Of a DNA stretch of 41,228 nt, positions 3,590 through 41,228 are shown in pieces. Each line of letters opens with the position of its first letter. Position 1 is the first letter of the stretch. Both the position numbers and the translations under genes were made by a program. The notes under the pieces were generated by a model. The model did not search any database. It was not told the DNA's origin and saw nothing but the letters and a program-made list of their open reading frames with translations. The DNA lies in IMG/VR virus record IMGVR_UViG_3300030390_001297, positions 1-41,228 of that record, one strand, 5' to 3'. Source of the DNA: a virus.

Positions 3590-4006
3590 ATGAGCATCAC
3601 AATTACGCAAGTGCGCAACGCAATCTCACTACAATCAGACAACACACGTTTGGACGTTGAAATCAATCACCCAGAATACGGTTGGATACCCTATGGGCTA
3701 AATTCTGAAGACACTGACACAACCATCAATAACGATGAAATCATGGCTTTAATTGGCACAGACTTCGCAGCATATGTAGCGCCTACCCAAGCGGAGTTAG
3801 ATGCGAAAGCGGCTGCAAATGTTCGTGCCGAACGTGATTATATTTTGGCTACAGTAGTTGACCCAATGGTGTCTAATGCTCTGCGCTGGGCTGACCTAAC
3901 ATCTGATAAGCAAACAGAATGGTCGCAATATAGAACGAACCTATTGAACGTGCCGCAGCAAGCTGGATTTCCAAATTCTATTACTTGGCCTACTGAGCCT
4001 AGCTAA
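3590..4006 (+). CDS. Phage tail assembly chaperone-like protein (Phage_tail_APC type)
   Basis: 138 residues. The C-terminal part contains the pattern RAERDYILA...W...QYRTNLLNVPQQAGFPNSITWPTEP, typical of a small family encoded directly after tail-fibre genes and annotated as tail assembly chaperone (Pfam Phage_tail_APC). The N-terminal half (VEINHPEYGWIPYGL) resembles the part that mimics or contacts the fibre tip. It lies 12 bases after the fibre stop and is probably cotranslated with it. The likely job is helping the fibre trimerise or protecting its tip; that is inferred from family and position. Confidence 0.75.
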   Translation: MSITITQVRNAISLQSDNTRLDVEINHPEYGWIPYGLNSEDTDTTINNDEIMALIGTDFAAYVAPTQAELDAKAAANVRAERDYILATVVDPMVSNALRWADLTSDKQTEWSQYRTNLLNVPQQAGFPNSITWPTEPS

Positions 4007-13390: not shown

Positions 13391-13415
13391 TTGACAGGTA
13401 TCACAGTGATATAAC
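13391..13415 (+). promoter_or_regulatory. Operator-like palindrome beside a TTGACA box
   Basis: A consensus -35 box TTGACA (13391-13396) is followed 2 bases later by the palindrome TATCAC-A-GTGATA (13399-13411), which resembles lambda CI/Cro operator half-sites. A TATAAC at 13410 is only 13 bases from the -35 box, so the -10 box is unclear. It lies before the genes leading into the MarR-type regulator and integrase and would suit repression of that unit. Confidence 0.45.
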
Positions 13416-13469
13416 AATCTACTCAGTACCTTTACAGATTCGGGGATAATTTAGGAGAAAGCAGTAGTA

Positions 13470-13631
13470 ATGAATAATTGGTTTGTTACCCTTGGTAACT
13501 TTGAGATATTTATGGAACCTTCCAACGAAAGTGGGTGGTTCTGTAAAGTAATACGAGAACCTATGAATACACATATCTGGTTGTTTAATAGATTTCATAT
13601 CCTAATCAGCAACAATGGAGAAAGACAGTGA
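13470..13631 (+). CDS. Small hypothetical protein at start of lysogeny module
   Basis: 53 residues, Trp/Phe/Asn-rich (NNWFVTLGNFEIFMEP, HIWLFNRFHIL). AGGAG lies 12 bases upstream of the ATG, a slightly long spacing. It overlaps the following GTG-started gene by 4 bases (GTGA). No family recognised. Its base composition is more AT-rich than neighbouring genes. Confidence 0.45.
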   Translation: MNNWFVTLGNFEIFMEPSNESGWFCKVIREPMNTHIWLFNRFHILISNNGERQ

Positions 13632-13858
13632 CAGAGTACCTACAGTTTTACATACCAAAGGGCATGAGGGGGTTCGTGTGGCGTAAGTTTACGTTCTGTT
13701 TCAACTCTGTCATATCCATGGTTCACCATATACGAACAGCGACCCCAAGCGAAGACAGGCGGGAACAAAATGCCACTGCTGGTATTTGCAATTCTATAGC
13801 CATCTTTGGGTTTGTCCCAATTGTAAGAATCCTAGCCAAGCCAATTTTATATAGCTAA
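13628..13858 (+). CDS. Hypothetical protein with C-terminal membrane segment
   Basis: 76 residues from a GTG coupled to the preceding gene. The first part is basic and aromatic (YLQFYIPKGMRGFVWRKFTF), the end is hydrophobic (ICNSIAIFGFVPIVRILA). No family recognised. It lies 27 bases before the MarR-type gene and is probably in the same transcript. Confidence 0.45.
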   Translation: MTEYLQFYIPKGMRGFVWRKFTFCFNSVISMVHHIRTATPSEDRREQNATAGICNSIAIFGFVPIVRILAKPILYS

Positions 13859-13885
13859 AGAACTTACAAAAAAGGATACCAGTTA

Positions 13886-14230
13886 GTGACCCAACCAAAT
13901 CTTAAAAAAACATTGCTTGCCTTTGAGCAATTCAGAGCAATCAATCCTGCAATGCCCGTTCAACAAGTACAGACGTTTATTTTTGTTGGTGAGAACCAAG
14001 ACAACCATGGCGGTGTATCCATAAAGGATATCGCTGAAGGTCTTGGGTTTTCTCAGGCTTCAGCGTCTAGGAACGTGGCAGCATTTACCGCTTGGACCCG
14101 TCATAAGAAAGAAGGTCCTGATTTGTTGGTGGCTATTGAAGACCCACAAAACCGTACACTTAAAAAAGTCTCACTTACTGCCAAAGGGCGTAGGCTAAGA
14201 GACACATTATTGGAGTTAACCCACTCATGA
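13886..14230 (+). CDS. MarR-family transcriptional regulator
   Basis: 114 residues. The centre (about 43-67, GVSIKDIAEGLGFSQASASR) is a winged helix-turn-helix. The wing follows as VAIEDPQNRTLKKVSLTAKG, very close to the MarR-family wing pattern. MarR dimers bind palindromes of 15-20 bp, usually repressing. The GTG start has AAGGA about 10 bases upstream. It overlaps the integrase gene by ATGA, a pairing also seen in other integrase-bearing marine podoviruses. It is the leading candidate for the lysogeny regulator and for binding the repeated 15-bp palindrome. No inducer-binding site is obvious in this short version. Confidence 0.85.
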   Translation: MTQPNLKKTLLAFEQFRAINPAMPVQQVQTFIFVGENQDNHGGVSIKDIAEGLGFSQASASRNVAAFTAWTRHKKEGPDLLVAIEDPQNRTLKKVSLTAKGRRLRDTLLELTHS

Positions 14231-15228
14231 CAATCACTCAACGAGGAAAGGGGTGGCTGGCAACAGTCACCCATTTAGGGAATCGCGCACGTCAGCAATT
14301 CTCCACATATGCAGATGCTACACAATGGGAAGCCTCTGCGAAACACGCCATTATTCTTGGTAAACCTATGCCAGAAGTTAACCGAGTTAACCAAATAGGC
14401 TGGACCCTTGGGGATGCCGCAGACCGTACATTCAGAACACGGTGGAAAGGCAAGGCATCTGAGAAAACCAACTTGGTAAACATGAGGCACCACATGAATT
14501 ACTATGGGGATAAGATGCCCCTTAGTGACTTGAATACCGAGCAGATAGATGACCTGATACTGGACTTGAGAGAGCGTAGGTATTCAGGGGCTACCATTAA
14601 TCGGATACTAATGAACCTCTCGCGTTGTCTTCGGACTGCGCGGGAGTACGGCAAGATGGACCACAAGCCCACAATCAACAGAGAGCCTGAAGGGGAACAC
14701 CGCCTTCGTTGGTTGACCACTGCCGAGTGTGATAGGATTATCAGCAGCGCACAGGAACTAGGATATCTACACGTTAGGGACGCCATTGTGGTTGCGCTTG
14801 ATACAGGAATTAGGCGTGGTGAGTTGTTTCGCATTACACCCGCAGATATCACTAGGCAGGGCCTTGGGGTTTGGATAACTAAGAACATGAAGGGCCGTAT
14901 TATACCGTTGACCAAACGGGCTAGGGCTGTTCTTGAGTCGCGTGTATCACAGTGTGAGCATAGAACCTCTCTGGTGTTTCCACAGACCAACATTAACAGG
15001 ACCCCATGGTATCGCGTAAAGTACCATGCTGACATGGATAAGGACGTTGTTTGGCATACCCTGCGTCATACCTTTGCTTCCCGCTTGGTTCAGAGGGACG
15101 TACCAATCCAACACGTTCAGAAACTTATGGGCCACAAGACCATTCAGGTTACAATGCGGTATGCTAAGATTGCCGATGCAAACCTAGGAAACGCAATAGC
15201 AGCACTAGACAATATGTCTACTGTGTGA
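14227..15228 (+). CDS. int: Tyrosine integrase
   Basis: 333 residues. An N-terminal arm-binding region (1-55) is followed by a SAM-like core-binding domain (about 60-145) and the catalytic domain with R196 (TGIRRGEL), a Lys in NMKGR (K222), H277 and R280 (WHTLRHTF), H303 (LMGHKT) and the nucleophile Y312 (MRYAKI). All catalytic residues are present. It would recombine the phage attachment site with a host site. The start overlaps the MarR gene by 4 bases. A stem-loop and a tRNA-Leu gene lie directly downstream, the usual place for attP. Palindrome site 7 lies inside the N-terminal coding region. Confidence 0.95.
   Translation: MTITQRGKGWLATVTHLGNRARQQFSTYADATQWEASAKHAIILGKPMPEVNRVNQIGWTLGDAADRTFRTRWKGKASEKTNLVNMRHHMNYYGDKMPLSDLNTEQIDDLILDLRERRYSGATINRILMNLSRCLRTAREYGKMDHKPTINREPEGEHRLRWLTTAECDRIISSAQELGYLHVRDAIVVALDTGIRRGELFRITPADITRQGLGVWITKNMKGRIIPLTKRARAVLESRVSQCEHRTSLVFPQTNINRTPWYRVKYHADMDKDVVWHTLRHTFASRLVQRDVPIQHVQKLMGHKTIQVTMRYAKIADANLGNAIAALDNMSTV
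14377..14391 (+). promoter_or_regulatory. Palindromic 15-mer, site 7 (inside integrase gene)
   Basis: GTTAACCGAGTTAAC, one mismatch to the core. It is read as Val-Asn-Arg-Val-Asn, a different reading frame from sites 6, 8 and 9. Confidence 0.7.
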
Positions 15229-15241
15229 AAATGTGGCATTT

Positions 15242-15263
15242 CCCGTGGCATACACGGGGTTTT
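15242..15263 (+). terminator. Possible weak terminator after integrase
   Basis: Perfect 6-bp stem CCCGTG / CACGGG with loop GCATA, followed by a short run of four T residues. It lies 13 bases after the integrase stop and just before the tRNA. Confidence 0.45.
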
Positions 15264-15268
15264 GTGGC

Positions 15269-15355
15269 GCGGGTGTGGTGGAATTGGTAGACACAAGGGA
15301 CTTAAAATCCCTCGCTTTCAACGGCTTACGGGTTCGAGTCCCGTCACCCGCACCA
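15269..15355 (+). tRNA. tRNA-Leu (anticodon UAA)
   Basis: Complete 87-nt class II tRNA with encoded CCA end. The acceptor stem GCGGGTG pairs perfectly with CACCCGC. The anticodon stem AGGGA/TCCCT encloses loop CTTAAAA, giving anticodon TAA at 15303-15305. A long variable arm and a T arm ACGGG-TTCGAGT-CCCGT follow. It can serve two purposes. It may be the attP identity segment for integration into a host tRNA-Leu gene, as in integrase-bearing marine podoviruses. It may also supply decoding of TTA codons, which are rare in high-GC Roseobacter hosts. Confidence 0.95.
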
Positions 15356-15394
15356 TAAACTCAGTCTTAAAATGTAACCACAGACCTGTCCACA

Positions 15395-15424
15395 TTGGTA
15401 TACCCTTTAAAATATAGCTATACT
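15395..15424 (+). promoter_or_regulatory. Possible host sigma-70 promoter for the RNA polymerase gene
   Basis: TTGGTA (15395-15400) and TATACT (15419-15424) with 18-base spacing, about 100 bases before the RNA polymerase start. The polymerase gene must be transcribed by the host enzyme, so a promoter is expected here or upstream. Match quality is moderate. Confidence 0.4.
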
Positions 15425-15526
15425 GGCATATTGCAGGGTTATCCTGAACGTATCCACATGTGTTAGACTTTATACCCTATGCCACAAAAACCTGTGGCGT
15501 GGTGGCTAATCAACCAAGGAAACATA

Positions 15527-17953
15527 ATGAACAATCATCTCTATGAAATACAGAGAACCCTTGAGGCCGACATGCAGCAAAAGGGCGTGGACTATTATCG
15601 CTCAGAGGTCCTGAAGGCACAGGGCCAAGGTAACGAAAGTACAACCCTGTATGGCATCCTTGCAATGAAGAAATCAGTAGACAGCGTGGTGTTTGCTATA
15701 AACAATTTTCTGGACGAGGCGTTTACTGGACGGGCTGGGCGGCTATCCAGTGCGGGACATTTGGTATCCCTGTTGGAACCTGAGACTGCCGCATACCTGT
15801 CTTTGAAATCTACTATGGATAGCGTGAGCAAAAACCAGACACTCACCAAGGCGGCTATGTCAATCGCGGGGATGCTTGAGGACCAGTTCAAGTTTACTCT
15901 GTTCGACAATCAGGAACCAATGTGGTTCAGGCGTATCAAAGACGAAGTGAACAAGCGCACCAGCAACCGATATTATCGTCGGTATGCCATTATCCACACG
16001 ATGAATAAGAAAGCCTTGGTGGACTACGAGCCATGGTCCAAGCAGGAAAAAATGCACCTTGGGTGTAAAATGATTGACCTAATTATTCAGGCAACAGGTT
16101 TGTTTGAATTGACTACCCACACATTCGGGAGAACTAAGCGGGTCCTGTATCTACAGCCCACCAAAGAAACGCTTGAGTGGATTGAGAATATCAACCTCAA
16201 GGGCGAAGTCATAAGCCCCCGATACATGCCCTGTGTTATACCACCCCGTCACTGGCATGGCCCTTTCGGTGGGGGATACCACACGAAGCACATTCGGCCC
16301 TTGCCTGTGGTTAAGACAGTCAACCGTCGATACCTAGAGGAAATGGAGTGGCACGAAATGCCAGCAGAGTACGAGGCCCTCAATTCATTACAAGCGACTA
16401 GCTGGGAAGTGAACACAGAGGTCCTAGAGGTCATGCGACAGGCATGGGAGACAGGAGACAGTTGGGGTGGACTACCACAGCGAGAGGATTACCCGCTGCC
16501 CCCAAGCCCCTTCCCAGATTTGAAGAAAGCCAACATGAATGACGCACAGCTTCTACAGTTCCGTGAGTGGAAACACGCAGCTTCCCGCATACACCAGAGT
16601 AACGCACGATTGACAAGCAAACGGCTTCAGCTTGTTCGTACCGTTGCTATGGCAGAGAAGTTCAAAAAGTTCCGAGAGTTCTTCTTTGTTTGGCAGAATG
16701 ATTTTCGTGGGCGTAAGTACGTTGTGAGTTCGTTCCTCAGTCCCCAAGGACCTGACTATGCCAAGTCGCTACTGCGGTTCTCCAAGGGCGTAGATTTGAC
16801 CGCTGAAGGCCAGTATTGGCTTGCGGTACATGGGGCTAATTGCTTTGGAGAGGATAAGTGCAGCTTTGATGACCGTAGGGCGTGGGTTCTGACTCACGAT
16901 ATGGACATTCGGGCCTGTGCTGCCGACCCCATGGGTTATACCATGTGGACCAAAGCTGGCGACCCTTGGATGTTTCTTGCGTTTTGCTTTGAGTGGGCCA
17001 GTGCGGAGATTGGGAAGCCCTCACGATTACCAGTGTCTCTTGATGGGTCCAACAATGGACTGCAACACCTGTCTGCCATTGGCCTCTGTGCCTCTGGGGG
17101 AGAAAGCACCAACCTAATACCGAGTGATGTTCCCCGCGACATTTATCAGGACGTTGCTGATGCAGTGATAGTTGTTTTGGAAAGCCGCAAGGCCCATGAC
17201 CCCATGGCGGCGCAATGGCTTGAATTTGGTGTGTCCCGCAAGACCACCAAGCGGCCTGTGATGGTGGTTCCTTACGGTGGGCGTATATACTCGACCAGAA
17301 AGTACATTGAGGATTACATAGTGGACCGCACAGAGGCAGGGCATAGCAACCCATGGGGCCATGACCTATTCGGCCCTAGTCACTATCTCAGTTCGATTGT
17401 GTGGGAATGTATCTCAGAGGTGATTGTAAGTGCGCGGGTGGTTATGGATTGGCTTCAAGAAATATCGTCTACCGTGTCCAAAGAAAACCTCCCCGTTATC
17501 TGGGAGACACCCACAAAGTTTTTAGTCCACCAGATGTACCCTGAAACTAGGTCCCGAAGGATAGTAACGCACATAGACAACAGCCTTATCAAACCACAGG
17601 TGCGCGAACAGGACTTCACTAAGTCCGACAGGCGCAGGGCAGTCAACGGGGCCTCACCAAATTTCATACATTCGCTGGACAGCGCAGCGATGACCCTCAC
17701 GATAAATAGGTGTGTCCAAAAGGGCATTACAGACTTCGCAATGGTGCATGACAGCTACGGGGTACATGCCTCAAATGTTCCTGTGCTTTTTGAAGAAACG
17801 AGGGTTGCTTTTTACGAAATGTATGCACAGAATGAGGTACTAGAGCAGTTTAGAATGTGTGCTCTTGAGGTAGTTGATGATGTACCAGATACCCCCGCAA
17901 AAGGTGATTTGGACCTAGCTTTGGTTAAGGAATCCAACTACTTTTTCGCATAA
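15527..17953 (+). CDS. T7-like single-subunit RNA polymerase
   Basis: DNA-directed RNA polymerase, 808 residues (T7 is 883). The catalytic residues are all recognisable: D506 in SLDGSNNGLQHLSA (T7 D537), K575 in TKRPVMVVPYGG (T7 K631), Y583 in the same motif (T7 Y639) and D742 in MVHDSYG (T7 D812). The C-terminus ends in FFA like T7 (FAFA), the foot region needed for catalysis. I chose ATG 15527 because AAGGAA lies 6 bases upstream; the frame is also open from an ATG at 15479. It would transcribe the middle and late genes from phage-specific promoters. It is separated from the upstream integrase by the tRNA-Leu gene, the same order as in marine podoviruses with integrases. Confidence 0.95.
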   Translation: MNNHLYEIQRTLEADMQQKGVDYYRSEVLKAQGQGNESTTLYGILAMKKSVDSVVFAINNFLDEAFTGRAGRLSSAGHLVSLLEPETAAYLSLKSTMDSVSKNQTLTKAAMSIAGMLEDQFKFTLFDNQEPMWFRRIKDEVNKRTSNRYYRRYAIIHTMNKKALVDYEPWSKQEKMHLGCKMIDLIIQATGLFELTTHTFGRTKRVLYLQPTKETLEWIENINLKGEVISPRYMPCVIPPRHWHGPFGGGYHTKHIRPLPVVKTVNRRYLEEMEWHEMPAEYEALNSLQATSWEVNTEVLEVMRQAWETGDSWGGLPQREDYPLPPSPFPDLKKANMNDAQLLQFREWKHAASRIHQSNARLTSKRLQLVRTVAMAEKFKKFREFFFVWQNDFRGRKYVVSSFLSPQGPDYAKSLLRFSKGVDLTAEGQYWLAVHGANCFGEDKCSFDDRRAWVLTHDMDIRACAADPMGYTMWTKAGDPWMFLAFCFEWASAEIGKPSRLPVSLDGSNNGLQHLSAIGLCASGGESTNLIPSDVPRDIYQDVADAVIVVLESRKAHDPMAAQWLEFGVSRKTTKRPVMVVPYGGRIYSTRKYIEDYIVDRTEAGHSNPWGHDLFGPSHYLSSIVWECISEVIVSARVVMDWLQEISSTVSKENLPVIWETPTKFLVHQMYPETRSRRIVTHIDNSLIKPQVREQDFTKSDRRRAVNGASPNFIHSLDSAAMTLTINRCVQKGITDFAMVHDSYGVHASNVPVLFEETRVAFYEMYAQNEVLEQFRMCALEVVDDVPDTPAKGDLDLALVKESNYFFA

Positions 17954-24397: not shown

Positions 24398-24773
24398 ATG
24401 GAGTTTTTCTATGATTAACCGTGAAGAGTACGCAAAGGTTTTAGAAGCCAGCAAAGCCCTTAATTTCAATAACTACCAAAAGGAAGCCCATAGCACAGCG
24501 GTCTATCCCCCAGAAATGGGTATGGCCTACTGTGTCACTGGGTTGTGCGCTGAGACGGGCGAGGTAGCCGATAAGGTTGCTAAATACTACAGGGGTGACG
24601 GTGATTTAAACCGTGATGGCCTCAAGAAAGAGTTGGGGGATGTTCTGTGGTTTATTGCAGAGCTTTCCACACACCTAGGATTTGACTTGGATGAAGTGGC
24701 CCAAGGCAACCTAGACAAACTAGCAGATAGACAAAAAAGAAATGCCCTCAAGGGTAATGGAGATAACCGTTAA
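24390..24773 (+). CDS. MazG-like nucleotide pyrophosphohydrolase
   Basis: 127 residues. The all-alpha NTP-PPase motif is visible as AETGEVADKVAKYYR and KKELGDVLWFIAEL (E-x2-E...E-x2-D), which binds Mg2+ and hydrolyses NTPs or (p)ppGpp-like nucleotides to monophosphates. Phage MazG proteins are thought to adjust nucleotide pools during infection. The start could also be ATG 24411, which has GGAG 7 bases upstream. It overlaps the RNR gene by one base (TAATG). Confidence 0.88.
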   Translation: MAKWSFSMINREEYAKVLEASKALNFNNYQKEAHSTAVYPPEMGMAYCVTGLCAETGEVADKVAKYYRGDGDLNRDGLKKELGDVLWFIAELSTHLGFDLDEVAQGNLDKLADRQKRNALKGNGDNR

Positions 24774-26656
24774 TGGACCAGTATCAGCAATATATCGCAC
24801 TCAGTAAATACGCACGTTTTGTCGAAGGTGAAGAACGCAGGGAAACATGGGGAGAGAGTGTCGATAGATATATTAACTTCTTTTCAGAAAAATTCCCCCA
24901 AGCTAAAAAAGACCTTGCTGAAGCCTCTGGTTATATCAAGTCACTTGCCGTTGTTCCTTCGATGAGAGCAATAATGACAGCGGGTCCAGCTTTAGACAGG
25001 GACCATATAGCAGGTTATAATTGTTCGTATCTGGCGATTAACGACCAAAGGGCCTTCGATGAAACCTTGTATCTCCTGATGTGTGGTACGGGTGTTGGGT
25101 ATTCTGTGGAACGTGCAAACACCGAACAACTACCAACAGTACCCCTGAAGCTAAAACCAAGTGATGATTTGATTGTTGTTGAGGACAGCAAAATAGGATG
25201 GGCAGAGGGCCTACGTGAACTCATAACCGCATTGTATAATGGGGAAGTTCCTCAGTGGGACTTGGGCAAGATTAGACCCTCTGGCTCTCGCCTCAAAGTC
25301 TTTGGTGGTAGGGCCTCTGGACCCGACCCACTTGAGAAACTGTTTAAGTTTACCATTAAGACTTTTCGGGAAGCAGAAGGACGCCGCCTAAAACCTTTAG
25401 AATGTCACGATATTCTTTGTGCTGTTGCTGCGTCAGTTGTGGTTGGCGGGGTGCGCCGAAGTGCAATGATTAGCCTATCGGACCTTGATGATGACGAAAT
25501 GCGTTACTGCAAATCAGGGGAGTGGTGGGAATACAACATTGACCGTAAGTTTGCTAATAATTCTGTGGCTTACGAAAAGAAGCCTGACATGGGGGAATTT
25601 CTCAACGAATGGACAGCCTTGTATAAATCTCAGAGCGGTGAACGAGGTATCTTCAACCGACAGGCAGCTATGGACCAAGCGACCAAATCAGGCCGTAGGG
25701 ACCCTAATCATGCCTTTGGGACAAATCCTTGCGGAGAGATTTTATTACGCGATATGCAGACATGTAATCTCTCAGAGGTTATCATTAGGGCTTCTGATGA
25801 TGAGGAACTACTAACCAAAAAAGTCGAAATCGCGGCCCTTTTAGGCACACTTCAGTCTGCGTTGACCGACACTCGTTACCTACGTCCTGAGTGGAAGAAA
25901 AACATGATGGAAGAACGGCTTTTGGGCGTTAGTTTTACAGGCATTATGGACAACCCTTTGATGTACAGTATCGACAGTTATGACGCTACTTTCTTGTCTT
26001 GGAGACTTGAGCGTATGAAAGAGGTGGTCATCAAGACCAACGAGAAATGGGCCTCGATTCTGGGTATTAACCCATCTGTGGCTACAACTTGTGTCAAGCC
26101 AAGTGGGACGGTTTCACAGCTAAGTTCGTCTGCCTCTGGGATTCACCCACGATACGCTAACCACTACATTCGGCGTGTACGTGCAGACATTAAGGACCCT
26201 CTGGCAACATGGATGGCTGACCAAGGGCTTCCAAACGAACTAGACAAACACCAAGAGGATAATTTGGTTTTCTCGTTCCCTATCAAATCCCCAGCAGGTT
26301 GCGTTACTCGCCACTCTATGACCGCTATGGACCAACTTAACCTATGGATGATTTACAGAAAACATTGGACTGAGCATAACCCCAGTATCACCGTGTATGT
26401 CTCTGAGGACGAGTGGATTGAGGTTGCCGATTACGTGTATCAGAACTTTGAAGAGGTAGGTGGGGTGTCGTTTTTACCTAGGGAAGACGACAAACACACC
26501 TACGTACAAGCACCTTATGAAGAAATAAATGAGTTGCAATATGCTGATTTTATGGGTAAAATGCCCTCAGTTTCTTTCTCGGCTTACAGGGAAGCTAAGG
26601 ACATGACGGTTGCTTCACAGGAACTAGCATGTACGGGCGGTGCTTGTGAGCTTTAG
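24773..26656 (+). CDS. nrdJ: Ribonucleotide reductase, class II, adenosylcobalamin-dependent
   Basis: 627 residues. It converts ribonucleotides to deoxyribonucleotides with a B12 cofactor, using host-supplied B12. C84 (GYNCSYLA), the N318-x-C320-x-E322 active site (NPCGEI), LMCGTGVGYSVE, VVGGVRRSAM, PSGTVSQLSS and the C-terminal pair in ACTGGACEL fit the monomeric class II type. No ATP-cone is seen at the N-terminus and no NrdB partner gene is present in the genome, as expected for class II. It is the last gene of the replication block; palindrome site 10 and a strong terminator follow immediately. Confidence 0.94.
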   Translation: MDQYQQYIALSKYARFVEGEERRETWGESVDRYINFFSEKFPQAKKDLAEASGYIKSLAVVPSMRAIMTAGPALDRDHIAGYNCSYLAINDQRAFDETLYLLMCGTGVGYSVERANTEQLPTVPLKLKPSDDLIVVEDSKIGWAEGLRELITALYNGEVPQWDLGKIRPSGSRLKVFGGRASGPDPLEKLFKFTIKTFREAEGRRLKPLECHDILCAVAASVVVGGVRRSAMISLSDLDDDEMRYCKSGEWWEYNIDRKFANNSVAYEKKPDMGEFLNEWTALYKSQSGERGIFNRQAAMDQATKSGRRDPNHAFGTNPCGEILLRDMQTCNLSEVIIRASDDEELLTKKVEIAALLGTLQSALTDTRYLRPEWKKNMMEERLLGVSFTGIMDNPLMYSIDSYDATFLSWRLERMKEVVIKTNEKWASILGINPSVATTCVKPSGTVSQLSSSASGIHPRYANHYIRRVRADIKDPLATWMADQGLPNELDKHQEDNLVFSFPIKSPAGCVTRHSMTAMDQLNLWMIYRKHWTEHNPSITVYVSEDEWIEVADYVYQNFEEVGGVSFLPREDDKHTYVQAPYEEINELQYADFMGKMPSVSFSAYREAKDMTVASQELACTGGACEL

Positions 26657-38795: not shown

Positions 38796-41228
38796 TGGAA
38801 ATTGATAAAAACCAAGTGAGTGCCTTTGCAGAACGCATGAGAGCCGCAGAAAACGAAAGCCTTTCTTGGACGGGACGGGCTGGTGATGTTGCTCAAGGGG
38901 CCTTTGCGGGTGCTGTGGATGCAGTTGAGGAAACAGCCCAGTTTGCACACTGGGCCGCTGATGGCCTTGCGGAAGGTGCTGGCTATGTCATGGGTCAAGA
39001 TTGGGAAGGCTTTGAGGATAATCCCGACAGGTTTCTTTTTAATCCCGCTAGGCCCTCTACAGCCCTTGGGCGTGGTGTTAAAGATATTTCTCAGTTTGCC
39101 ACAGGGTTTGTTGGTGCTGGTAAGTTTAAGCTAATAGGGAATGTTGGGTCAAAGATTTTCAAAGAGGGAAGCAAGAAAGCCGCCATAACATCTTCAGCAG
39201 CTAAATCCGCAACTTCCTCTGTGGTAGCCCATGACCCCTATGAAGAACGCCTTTCAGATATCCTTGTGCAGTACCCAGCAACCACTAACGCTGTGACCGA
39301 GTATCTTGCTAGTGATGAGGATGACACTGAGGCCGAAAGACGCCTAAAGATGGGACTTGAGGACCTTGCATTAACAGGTGTGCTAGAAGGTGTTTTCTGG
39401 GCAGCAAGAGCCGTTAAAAAGGGTGGTAAGGCTGTAGAAGAAGCAGACGAAAATCTTAAAAATATAGATAAGAAAGCCGATGCTACCGAAGCAAAGAACA
39501 CAGCAGAAAAACGACAGGTTATTGCAGAGGCTACGGCACAGAAAGAAACTATTGAAGCTGTAGTCAAACAAGGGGGCGACCCCGAAAGTTTACCAAGGGA
39601 CAAAATACTTGAAACAGTTATCAATGACCTTGAGGCTCTAGCTAAAGAAAGTAAGACAACCCGCGATACTGTTATTGATGGGTTATCCAAACCTAACATC
39701 GTGGAGTTGGGAAAGGTATTGGGCGTTAAGATAGGGCAAAACACCAAGCTAAAGACGGTCAAAAAGCGGATTAAAAAAGTCCTTGATGACGCTAGGGAAG
39801 GCCAAAAAGTTAACTCAGTTAACAAAGCTGTACCCAAGGTCGATATACCCACAAAGGCCACCCCTGACCAAATACAAGCAATTCTAAAGGGCATTAAGAC
39901 ACCAGAGGATATGCAAGCGGTATTCAGTGGTACTAAGCGGGGTACTTTCAAACTGTTTAACCGCACAGAAGACGGTGATATTTCCATCATGCCTGATGAC
40001 TTCCCTGATGAGGTCACGGCAGTAATCCAACAAACCATTAATGCCTCTAAGCCCATGCTGGACCAAGTAAAAGGTACTTTGAGTGTTGATGATGTGAACA
40101 AAGCGGTTGCAGAACGTCTTTCGGAAACCAGCGACCTTACCGCAAAGCAGTGGATGGATACCGCCTTTCTTCACGCCAGTAATGTTGATGAAGCCATGAT
40201 TACTCTGCACAGCATTGAGTCTATGCTGACGGAATCCTTGGAACGAGTACACAAGCTGTTCTCTAATGAGCTTTATGAATCCAACGCGGAATGGCAAGCC
40301 AAAGCCCATGCTGAAGTGGAAACCTTCAATAACCTTTTGTCTGGTTCACAGAAACTTGAGTCAGTTAGTGGTCGTGCGTTGCGTATGCGCCAAGAGAAAA
40401 TCTTTGACAGTAAAGGCGTAGCCAAGGCCATTCGGTTTGATAGCAAAAGCGCAGCGGAAGCCATTGTTGACCTTGGGGGCGAAAAGAGCCTTGCAGAATT
40501 TAGAACCCTTGTTCTGGCTTCTGGTGGTGACTTAGGGAAAATCGGTAAGAAGGCCGCTAAACTTCCCAAAGGTAATAAACTTACTGCCCCGCTTGGTGAG
40601 TTATTTCGTGGGATGATTTTGTTTAACATCAAAACCCACGTAACCAACATAGCGTCAGGAATTACAGAGTCCGTTATTGTTCCAATGGAAAGATACATGG
40701 GTTCGTATATTCCATACGGTAGAAATCCCTTTGGAGTAGAGGCCAAGCGGGTACGCCAAGATACTGTGTATCACCTAATGGGCATGAGTTCAGCCTTTAA
40801 GGACTCGATTGCTCTTGCCGCTTCATCCTTTAGAGCAGAGAAAAACTTTCTGGACCCTGCCAACACCAAACTAGACGGCGGTGACGTTCAGAATAAGATT
40901 AGTTCTGGGTTTGCAGGTATTCGTGGGGATACCACTACGGGTAGGTTCTTGGACACTATCGGTAAAGTCTCACGTGGGTCCCTGAGAGCTTTAGGTTCTG
41001 AAGACGAGTTCTTTAAACAGATAAACTACAGAGGCCGTGTGTTCGCAGGGGCTATGCGCGAGGCAATGGCCCTTATGGATGCTGGCACCTTAAAAAGCAC
41101 TAAGGAAGTCAAAGAGTACGCCTTGAAGAAAGTCACAGAGGCTTTTGATGATGCTGGCAAAGGGACCAACACAGGAGCCTTGCAGTATGCCAGAGAGGTT
41201 ACATTTACGGAAGAATTACGGCAGGGGT
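38795..41228 (+). CDS. Internal virion/ejection protein, gp16-like (N-terminal part; continues at base 1)
   Basis: The open frame runs off the window end and continues at base 1, giving about 1233 residues in total. The N-terminus has no lytic transglycosylase domain, unlike T7 gp16. It has Ala/Gly-rich hydrophobic stretches (DVAQGAFAGAVDAVEETAQF; FATGFVGAGKFK; LTGVLEGVFWAARAV), then long charged helices, and conserved NIKTHVTNIASG near nt 40630, which I know from large ejection proteins of marine podoviruses. The start overlaps the gp15-like stop by one base. Palindrome site 13 lies inside it. Membrane insertion at infection is inferred. Confidence 0.85.
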   Translation, partial: MEIDKNQVSAFAERMRAAENESLSWTGRAGDVAQGAFAGAVDAVEETAQFAHWAADGLAEGAGYVMGQDWEGFEDNPDRFLFNPARPSTALGRGVKDISQFATGFVGAGKFKLIGNVGSKIFKEGSKKAAITSSAAKSATSSVVAHDPYEERLSDILVQYPATTNAVTEYLASDEDDTEAERRLKMGLEDLALTGVLEGVFWAARAVKKGGKAVEEADENLKNIDKKADATEAKNTAEKRQVIAEATAQKETIEAVVKQGGDPESLPRDKILETVINDLEALAKESKTTRDTVIDGLSKPNIVELGKVLGVKIGQNTKLKTVKKRIKKVLDDAREGQKVNSVNKAVPKVDIPTKATPDQIQAILKGIKTPEDMQAVFSGTKRGTFKLFNRTEDGDISIMPDDFPDEVTAVIQQTINASKPMLDQVKGTLSVDDVNKAVAERLSETSDLTAKQWMDTAFLHASNVDEAMITLHSIESMLTESLERVHKLFSNELYESNAEWQAKAHAEVETFNNLLSGSQKLESVSGRALRMRQEKIFDSKGVAKAIRFDSKSAAEAIVDLGGEKSLAEFRTLVLASGGDLGKIGKKAAKLPKGNKLTAPLGELFRGMILFNIKTHVTNIASGITESVIVPMERYMGSYIPYGRNPFGVEAKRVRQDTVYHLMGMSSAFKDSIALAASSFRAEKNFLDPANTKLDGGDVQNKISSGFAGIRGDTTTGRFLDTIGKVSRGSLRALGSEDEFFKQINYRGRVFAGAMREAMALMDAGTLKSTKEVKEYALKKVTEAFDDAGKGTNTGALQYAREVTFTEELRQG
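39809..39823 (+). promoter_or_regulatory. Palindromic 15-mer, site 13 (inside gp16-like gene)
   Basis: GTTAACTCAGTTAAC, exact core match, read as Lys-Val-Asn-Ser-Val-Asn; the same reading phase as site 7 and different from sites 6, 8 and 9. Confidence 0.75.
41220..41228 (+). repeat. Contig-end overlap with bases 1-9
   Basis: GGCAGGGGT here is identical to bases 1-9. Merging the two keeps the gp16-like reading frame open, showing that the contig is circularly permuted or closed as a circle in assembly. Confidence 0.85.

Follow-up and report, generated by a model that had tools for sequence, protein, structure and literature searches.

Lysogeny that depends on a phage-borne tRNA has been named in actinophages, and tests outside this group have been called for (PMC10865867). 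In these phages (Fionnbharth and others), a tyrosine integrase is accompanied by a short core lying in a host tRNA gene that stays broken, by a phage tRNA of the same isotype and by candidate arm-type repeats (PMC10865867). The replacement of a broken tRNA-Leu has also been stated for T7-like phages, namely the rhizobial vTRX32-1 and RHEph01, with a 12-bp core CAGATTTAGGTT in tRNA-Leu (PMC8631192), and for two S. meliloti prophages resembling Mesorhizobium phage Lo5R7ANS (PMC11476347). Here we describe a comparable region of the viral contig IMGVR_UViG_3300030390_001297, the whole 41,228 nucleotides of which are hereafter called the window. On its plus strand follow, 5′ to 3′, the gene of a MarR-type regulator (marR), an integrase gene (int), a 40-base gap, a complete tRNA-Leu(UAA) gene and the gene of a T7-like RNA polymerase (RNAP). 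Comparison with related phages and prophages makes it very likely that this is the module of a temperate T7-like phage using tRNA-dependent lysogeny at tRNA-Leu(UAA).

The described systems differ from the window in several respects. The actinophages use tRNA-Lys and others rather than tRNA-Leu(UAA), whereas the window phage is a proteobacterial T7-like podovirus with MarR as candidate regulator. The rhizobial phages, recovered in the present survey as L053, RHEph01 and Lo5R7ANS, belong to the same family but use tRNA-Leu(UAG), and the tRNA of RHEph01 is antisense and upstream of int. Fonsiphage and the pelagiphages HTVC011P and HTVC025P are T7-like and integrate in tRNA-Leu, with a replacement tRNA-Leu in Fonsiphage; their target is tRNA-Leu(UAG) (TAG in Fonsiphage) and their hosts are SAR11 bacteria (PMC6811365). 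In the cyanophages P-SSP7 and S-TIP37 the target is again tRNA-Leu, int being followed by the phage attachment site (attP); P-SSP7, which has the marR-like gene gp0.7, integrates, and its relative S-TIP37 integrates without stable lysogens (PMC8776855). Pseudomonas phage LUZ100 has marR and int ahead of RNAP, a complete tRNA-Leu(UAA) and the core ACTTAAAA after int, but its tRNA is antisense and lies between marR and int; its authors read this tRNA as an excision remnant and obtained no lysogens (PMC10134795). The present analysis adds the Leu(UAA) branch including the window phage, the match of anticodons, the copy-number evidence and the contrast with prophages that rebuild their target.

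A preliminary description of the window had proposed that a T7-like phage carries marR and int as a lysogeny module and likely integrates at tRNA-Leu(UAA), MarR being the only evident regulator; these proposals are supported by the present analysis. Its reading of the genes also holds: marR and int lie on the same strand and overlap by 4 bases (ATGA), the integrase has all its catalytic residues (R196, K222, H277, R280, H303 and Y312, all six aligned with XerD 1a0p), and a complete tRNA-Leu(UAA) with an encoded CCA follows, although not at the distance of 41 bases that had been given. The start of the region, at 13391, coincides with a good sigma-70-like −35 box. The coordinates of all features are collected in Table 1.

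Table 1. Features of the lysogeny module and its surroundings in the window
Feature	Position	Strand	Basis
Candidate host-type promoter of the lysogeny operon, TTGACA-16-AACAAT	13391..13418	+	sigma-70-like consensus scan, 10/12 matches
Two small open reading frames (ORFs) preceding marR, 53 aa and 76 aa (GTG start), 4-base mutual overlap	13470..13858	+	ORF list
marR, MarR-type winged-helix regulator, candidate lysogeny repressor	13886..14230	+	Pfam MarR_2 E=6e-5; PHROG 9665 'transcriptional regulator' E=4e-24
int, tyrosine integrase, 333 aa	14227..15228	+	Pfam PF00589 E=3.5e-26; PHROG 1 E=4e-57
P-arm repeats TGTGGC, candidate integrase arm-type sites	15232 and 15263 (15232..15268)	+	repeat count in gap
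Complete tRNA-Leu, anticodon UAA, proposed replacement tRNA	15269..15355	+	ARAGORN; Rfam RF00005
Proposed attP core CAGTCTTAAAAT	15362..15373	+	kept in L002 and L010; heptamer is the crossover core in 7 UAA prophages
Promoter-like site TTGGTA-18-TATACT, between core and RNAP	15395..15424	+	consensus scan; CACATTGGTATA kept in L010
P′-arm repeats GCCACA (15481) and TGTGGC (15493), candidate arm-type sites	15481..15498	+	centred on the core together with the P-arm pair
T7-like single-subunit RNAP	15527..17953	+	PF00940 E=2e-95; PHROG 414 E=5e-245
Palindromes TTAAC-NNN-GTTAA	4463, 8400, 8476, 10266, 11299, 13023, 14378, 18130, 21453, 26663, 31068, 35599, 39810		

Crossover in the anticodon loop of tRNA-Leu in related prophages

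The most informative evidence comes from integrated relatives. Genome contigs were scanned with an alignment of T7-like RNAPs, which gave 80 loci, and the integrases of these genomes were located next. Integrated prophages have RNAP at one end and int at the other, 37-43 kb away, as expected with an attP between the two genes. Host flanks were joined at each shared word of at least 7 bases (114-400 joins per prophage), and ARAGORN was asked for a tRNA across the joint. In nine prophages (L013, L015, L021, L022, L023, L026, L032, L040 and L053) the joined flanks recreate a whole tRNA-Leu, which the prophage splits at a crossover core of 8-17 bp in the anticodon loop; since the crossover falls at the same place of the tRNA in 9/9, the accepted joins are not a matter of chance. 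An orphan 5′ half of the host gene is left at one junction and the 3′ half at the other, and at none of the nine broken 5′ halves does ARAGORN report a complete tRNA. The phage tRNA stands intact elsewhere (in L021 and L023, just as in the window, between int and core in the same orientation), and its anticodon is that of the broken gene in all nine cases (7 UAA, 2 UAG). The UAA cores, namely CAGACTTAAAATCTGCT (L013), GACTTAAAATC (L021 and L040), CTTAAAATCCC (L023), GACTTAAAA (L032), ACTTAAAA (L022) and TTTTAAGTCCG (L026, opposite strand), have exactly the anticodon-loop heptamer CTTAAAA in common; the UAG cores are CTGGATTTAGGTT (L015) and CAGATTTAGGTT (L053). For L024, L034, L047, L052 and L089, flank joining gave no tRNA attachment site.

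These nine disruptors can be compared with seven restorers (L018, L019, L029, L033, L035, L043 and L072; targets Leu(UAG), Cys and Lys), in which the host tRNA is rebuilt. The restorers lack an additional tRNA of the target kind up to about 1.5 kb from int or RNAP, so that a phage tRNA accompanies 9/9 disruptors vs 0/7 restorers (Fisher p=9e-5; 5e-4 after merging near-duplicates). Both classes are interspersed in a rough integrase tree, in which at least two sequences (L107 and L102) were mis-extracted; the disruptors are therefore not one clade. As to the restorers themselves, L018, L019 and L043 belong to P. putida, Methylovorus and Paraburkholderia, respectively; these T7-like prophages lie in tRNA-Leu(UAG) in the first two and in tRNA-Lys(UUU) in the third.

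Copy numbers point in the same direction. When the seven UAA genomes are searched with 5′- and 3′-half patterns, the only tRNA-Leu(UAA) halves are those of the broken host gene and of the phage gene; an extra pattern match in the genome of L040 (L194) holds no tRNA. The 3′ pattern used here replaced an earlier one with a longer gap, which missed short variable arms. That the host tRNA is otherwise missing from the two UAG genomes is supported by the 5′ pattern, the only informative one there. The UAA lysogens include one complete chromosome, that of Xanthobacter sp. YC-JY1; some others are metagenome-assembled genomes (MAGs), and in these the absence of a host copy is weaker evidence.

Among free phages, tRNA and core go together as well. 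A complete tRNA-Leu(UAA) is carried by nine phages or contigs (the window, L002, L010, L011, LUZ100, Pasto, HTVC200P, HTVC119P and YIMV22061), and all nine have CTTAAAA outside the tRNA, between int and RNAP (on the minus strand in YIMV22061). In LUZ100 (L005) it is part of ACTTAAAA at 3917-3924, a candidate attP core for the tRNA-Leu(UAA) of Pseudomonas. Lo5R7ANS and RHEph01, with tRNA-Leu(UAG), have the UAG loop at this place instead. Neither the tRNA nor a Leu loop heptamer is found in the int-RNAP gap of BB8, CRP-118, HTVC019P, HTVC022P, HTVC121P and ProddE, and HTVC120P, which also lacks the tRNA, shows just a single UAG-like heptamer, off-strand. A Leu core without a complete tRNA gene occurs in HTVC105P, HTVC109P and P-SSP7, which, judged by this arrangement, look like restorers. 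By shuffling, the heptamer would arise by chance in 3-14% per phage; these values were not multiplied, because several of the phages are related.

In the window itself the genes, the complete tRNA, a separate core and flanking repeats can be read directly. Ten bases past the tRNA, CTTAAAA at 15366-15372 copies the anticodon loop of tRNA-Leu(UAA), and this second copy stands as AGTCTTAAAATG in the window and L002 and as AGACTTAAAATC in L010; it is among the few blocks outside the tRNA that are conserved when the gaps of the window and L010 are aligned. Four TGTGGC/GCCACA sites are present in the 298-base gap between int and RNAP against 0.15 expected (Poisson p=2e-5), and L010 has TGTGAC/GTCACA four times in matching places (4737, 4749, 5001 and 5013; p=2e-6). 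In both contigs the four repeats are centred on the core, and the repeat varies jointly on its two sides. They are candidate arm-type sites of the integrase, the alternative being a MarR operator, and the heptamer at 15366-15372 is probably a better attP core than the tRNA gene. An assignment of the host from the core was rejected, as seven bases are not specific.

Two contigs are close relatives. L002, also from IMG/VR, has an integrase 98% identical and a tRNA whose 3′ half is the same and whose D arm has one change. L010 is a 33 kb phage contig binned in the Rhodobiaceae MED766 MAG, with RNAP and integrase of 76% and 59% identity; its order is that of the window (marR, int with the 4-base overlap, tRNA-Leu(UAA), RNAP), and its tRNA sequence is clearly different. 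Because the order is the same, the layout is no accident. The preliminary description had suggested a search of Rhodobacteraceae genomes; a host of this family is not supported, since L010, the nearest relative, was binned with a MAG of the order Hyphomicrobiales, binning being weak evidence. Besides that MAG, no close relative was found when the integrase was searched in 297 genomes of its order and the RNAP in the 14 genomes of its family.

The favoured reading and its alternatives

Taken together, these data indicate that this marine phage can probably insert itself in the host chromosome by breaking a leucine tRNA gene essential to the cell, which would survive because the phage seems to bring a functional copy of that tRNA. 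Specifically, the host RNA polymerase would transcribe marR-int, and possibly also the tRNA, from 13391. The integrase would then recombine the attP core at 15366-15372 with the identical seven-base anticodon loop of the host tRNA-Leu(UAA) gene, giving a prophage bounded by RNAP on one side and by marR-int-tRNA on the other, with the host gene cut in two and not rebuilt. The phage tRNA would substitute for the lost one, so that UUA codons could still be read. RNAP, lying beside the host 5′ half with a promoter-like site of its own, would need silencing, most likely by MarR. It is in the related prophages that the place of crossover, the splitting of the host tRNA, a phage tRNA matching it and the lack of any further host copy are seen; the window phage would behave in the same way, its tRNA being expressed and needed and MarR acting as repressor. 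As in the actinophage systems, the window has a tyrosine integrase and a complete tRNA of the isotype that would be disrupted, and the short core in a host tRNA that is not rebuilt is found in the nine related prophages.

Several observations weigh against this proposal. No integrants of the window phage, L002 or L010 were found. A seven-base core has a chance of about 4% of occurring in the gap of the window, hence the case rests on comparison, and the same heptamer is also present within the phage tRNA (15301), where a crossover would be possible. Moreover, the module may be decaying, since some T7-like phages with integrases integrate without stable lysogens (PMC8776855) and none were obtained from LUZ100 (PMC10134795).

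The heptamer inside the phage tRNA also favours the classical case put forward in the preliminary description, in which the tRNA gene is itself the attP and carries the 3′ part of the host gene, which is rebuilt on integration, as in P-SSP7 and S-TIP37. Restorers of this kind do exist in the lineage: L018, L019 and L043 have cores of 50-60 bp, from anticodon to CCA, and a rebuilt host gene. However, in no restorer is there an additional, complete phage tRNA with this anticodon close to int or RNAP, and in 9/9 prophages that carry one the crossover lies outside it, in a separate anticodon-loop core, with the tRNA left intact. The parallel drawn with P-SSP7 is only partial: its Leu core and an attP identical to part of the host tRNA-Leu agree with it, but no complete tRNA gene was found near its int. 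An exact search with the 38 bases of the 3′ part of the window tRNA gave no match among 84,980 species genomes of bacteria and archaea, a collection from which the window host may be missing; this is half of the outcome that the preliminary description had named as refuting it, namely that no host genome shares a contiguous block of identity with the tRNA region. In viral contigs, L002 is the sole exact match of the 3′ half. As the classical case would also leave the extra core and the arm repeats centred on it unexplained, we regard it as improbable.

Far less credence is due to the view, proposed for LUZ100 and pelagiphages, that imprecise excision has left the tRNA behind and that it now serves no purpose. 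Although this is a published suggestion (PMC10134795), the full cloverleaf is retained. ARAGORN and Rfam (RF00005, 60.8 bits vs a threshold of 29 bits) each find one tRNA, that at 15269-15355, and in 17 divergent phage or prophage copies of tRNA-Leu(UAA) 99.2% of stem pairs hold, with 19/23 pairs changed on both sides; this conservation, with 99 double-change cells, is far above shuffled or slid controls. This shows the copies to be tRNAs of a working type, although part of the covariation may come from bacterial donors. In addition, the anticodon of the tRNA tracks that of the core (UAA or UAG), and restorers have no separate tRNA. The anticodon-loop core found in LUZ100 suggests that its tRNA-Leu, too, is a replacement gene and not a remnant. 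As a separate observation, the tRNA-Leu(UAA) of prophage L022 (L102 1398-1474, reverse-complemented locus) has 77 nt and no long variable arm, which is unusual for a leucine tRNA. Equally hard to sustain is a role in lytic growth (codon supply, or resistance to tRNA-cutting defences) with integration as a separate matter: such a role is often suggested for the tRNAs of phages, a point taken up in PMC10865867, and is possible as a second one, but UUA makes up just 11% of the leucine codons of the window phage, so that codon supply offers no obvious reason for the tRNA, and both the link between tRNA and core type and the broken host gene in lysogens would stay unexplained.

Candidate regulators and genome context

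In the proposed tRNA-dependent lysogeny at tRNA-Leu(UAA), MarR is likely the repressor that would keep RNAP silent, with candidate operator sites. The window agrees with LUZ100, the model of MarR-controlled temperate T7-like phages, in having marR directly ahead of int on one strand, and a hidden Markov model (HMM) of phage MarR proteins places marR directly upstream of int in 20/20 related integrase loci tested. Relatives of the window protein are found in P-SSP7 (gp0.7), LUZ100 and pelagiphages, and a protein search of viral contigs returned none. The two small ORFs ahead of marR have no match in Pfam or PHROG. Within the candidate lysogeny promoter, a perfect inverted repeat TATCACAGTGATA at 13399-13411 could be an autoregulatory operator. 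The promoter-like site between core and RNAP would remain with RNAP in the prophage. RNAP probably starts at 15527 rather than 15479, because the L010 homologue starts there and a good ribosome-binding site (AAGGAA) precedes it. A terminator-like stem at 15241-15259, in the int-tRNA gap, was not relied on, as its T-run is absent in L002.

The T7-like (Autographiviridae) assignment follows from the PF00940 RNAP, the gp2.5-like single-stranded DNA-binding protein gene that follows it and a gene order as in LUZ100, HTVC200P and CRP-118; the order marR-int-RNAP is common to these three, Pasto and P-SSP7, with gp0.7 as the MarR homologue. The ends of the window are identical over nine bases (1-9 and 41220-41228, GGCAGGGGT) and a reading frame is open across the joined ends, so that the contig probably represents the whole of a circularly permuted genome, about 41.2 kb long. 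A ribonucleotide reductase-like gene (Pfam barrel domain with class II insertion domain, PHROG 367) lies mid-genome, at 24773-26656.

A further feature is a dispersed palindrome. TTAAC-NNN-GTTAA occurs 13 times in the window (mostly GTTAACTSAGTTAAC), against at most two copies of any palindrome in randomised sequence. L010 has eight copies of a variant, TTAACCRYGGTTAA; copies inside int and after RNAP stand at matching places, and the variant is found nowhere else in its MAG. No comparable array is present in 16 related phages, of which 14 have an integrase and most a marR that is annotated or supported by the HMM, and the palindromes were therefore rejected as a general MarR operator. It is conceivable, though rather doubtful, that in the window phage and L010 they form a genome-wide operator array, bound by MarR or another small regulator, which controls lysogeny and silences the prophage at many points. 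If true, a T7-like phage would have a stoperator-like system beside its tRNA-dependent lysogeny.

More generally, these findings suggest one rule for many temperate T7-like phages. That is, the integrase cuts a tRNA, most often tRNA-Leu, in the anticodon loop, and the phage brings either a 3′ half that rebuilds the gene or a whole replacement tRNA of the matching anticodon. The rule could account for the tRNA-Leu that LUZ100, Pasto, HTVC200P and HTVC119P carry, and it predicts their attP and their bacterial attachment sites (attB). As the core is only about seven bases long and common to tRNA-Leu(UAA) genes, such phages would not be tied to one host sequence, a freedom that may ease their movement between hosts.

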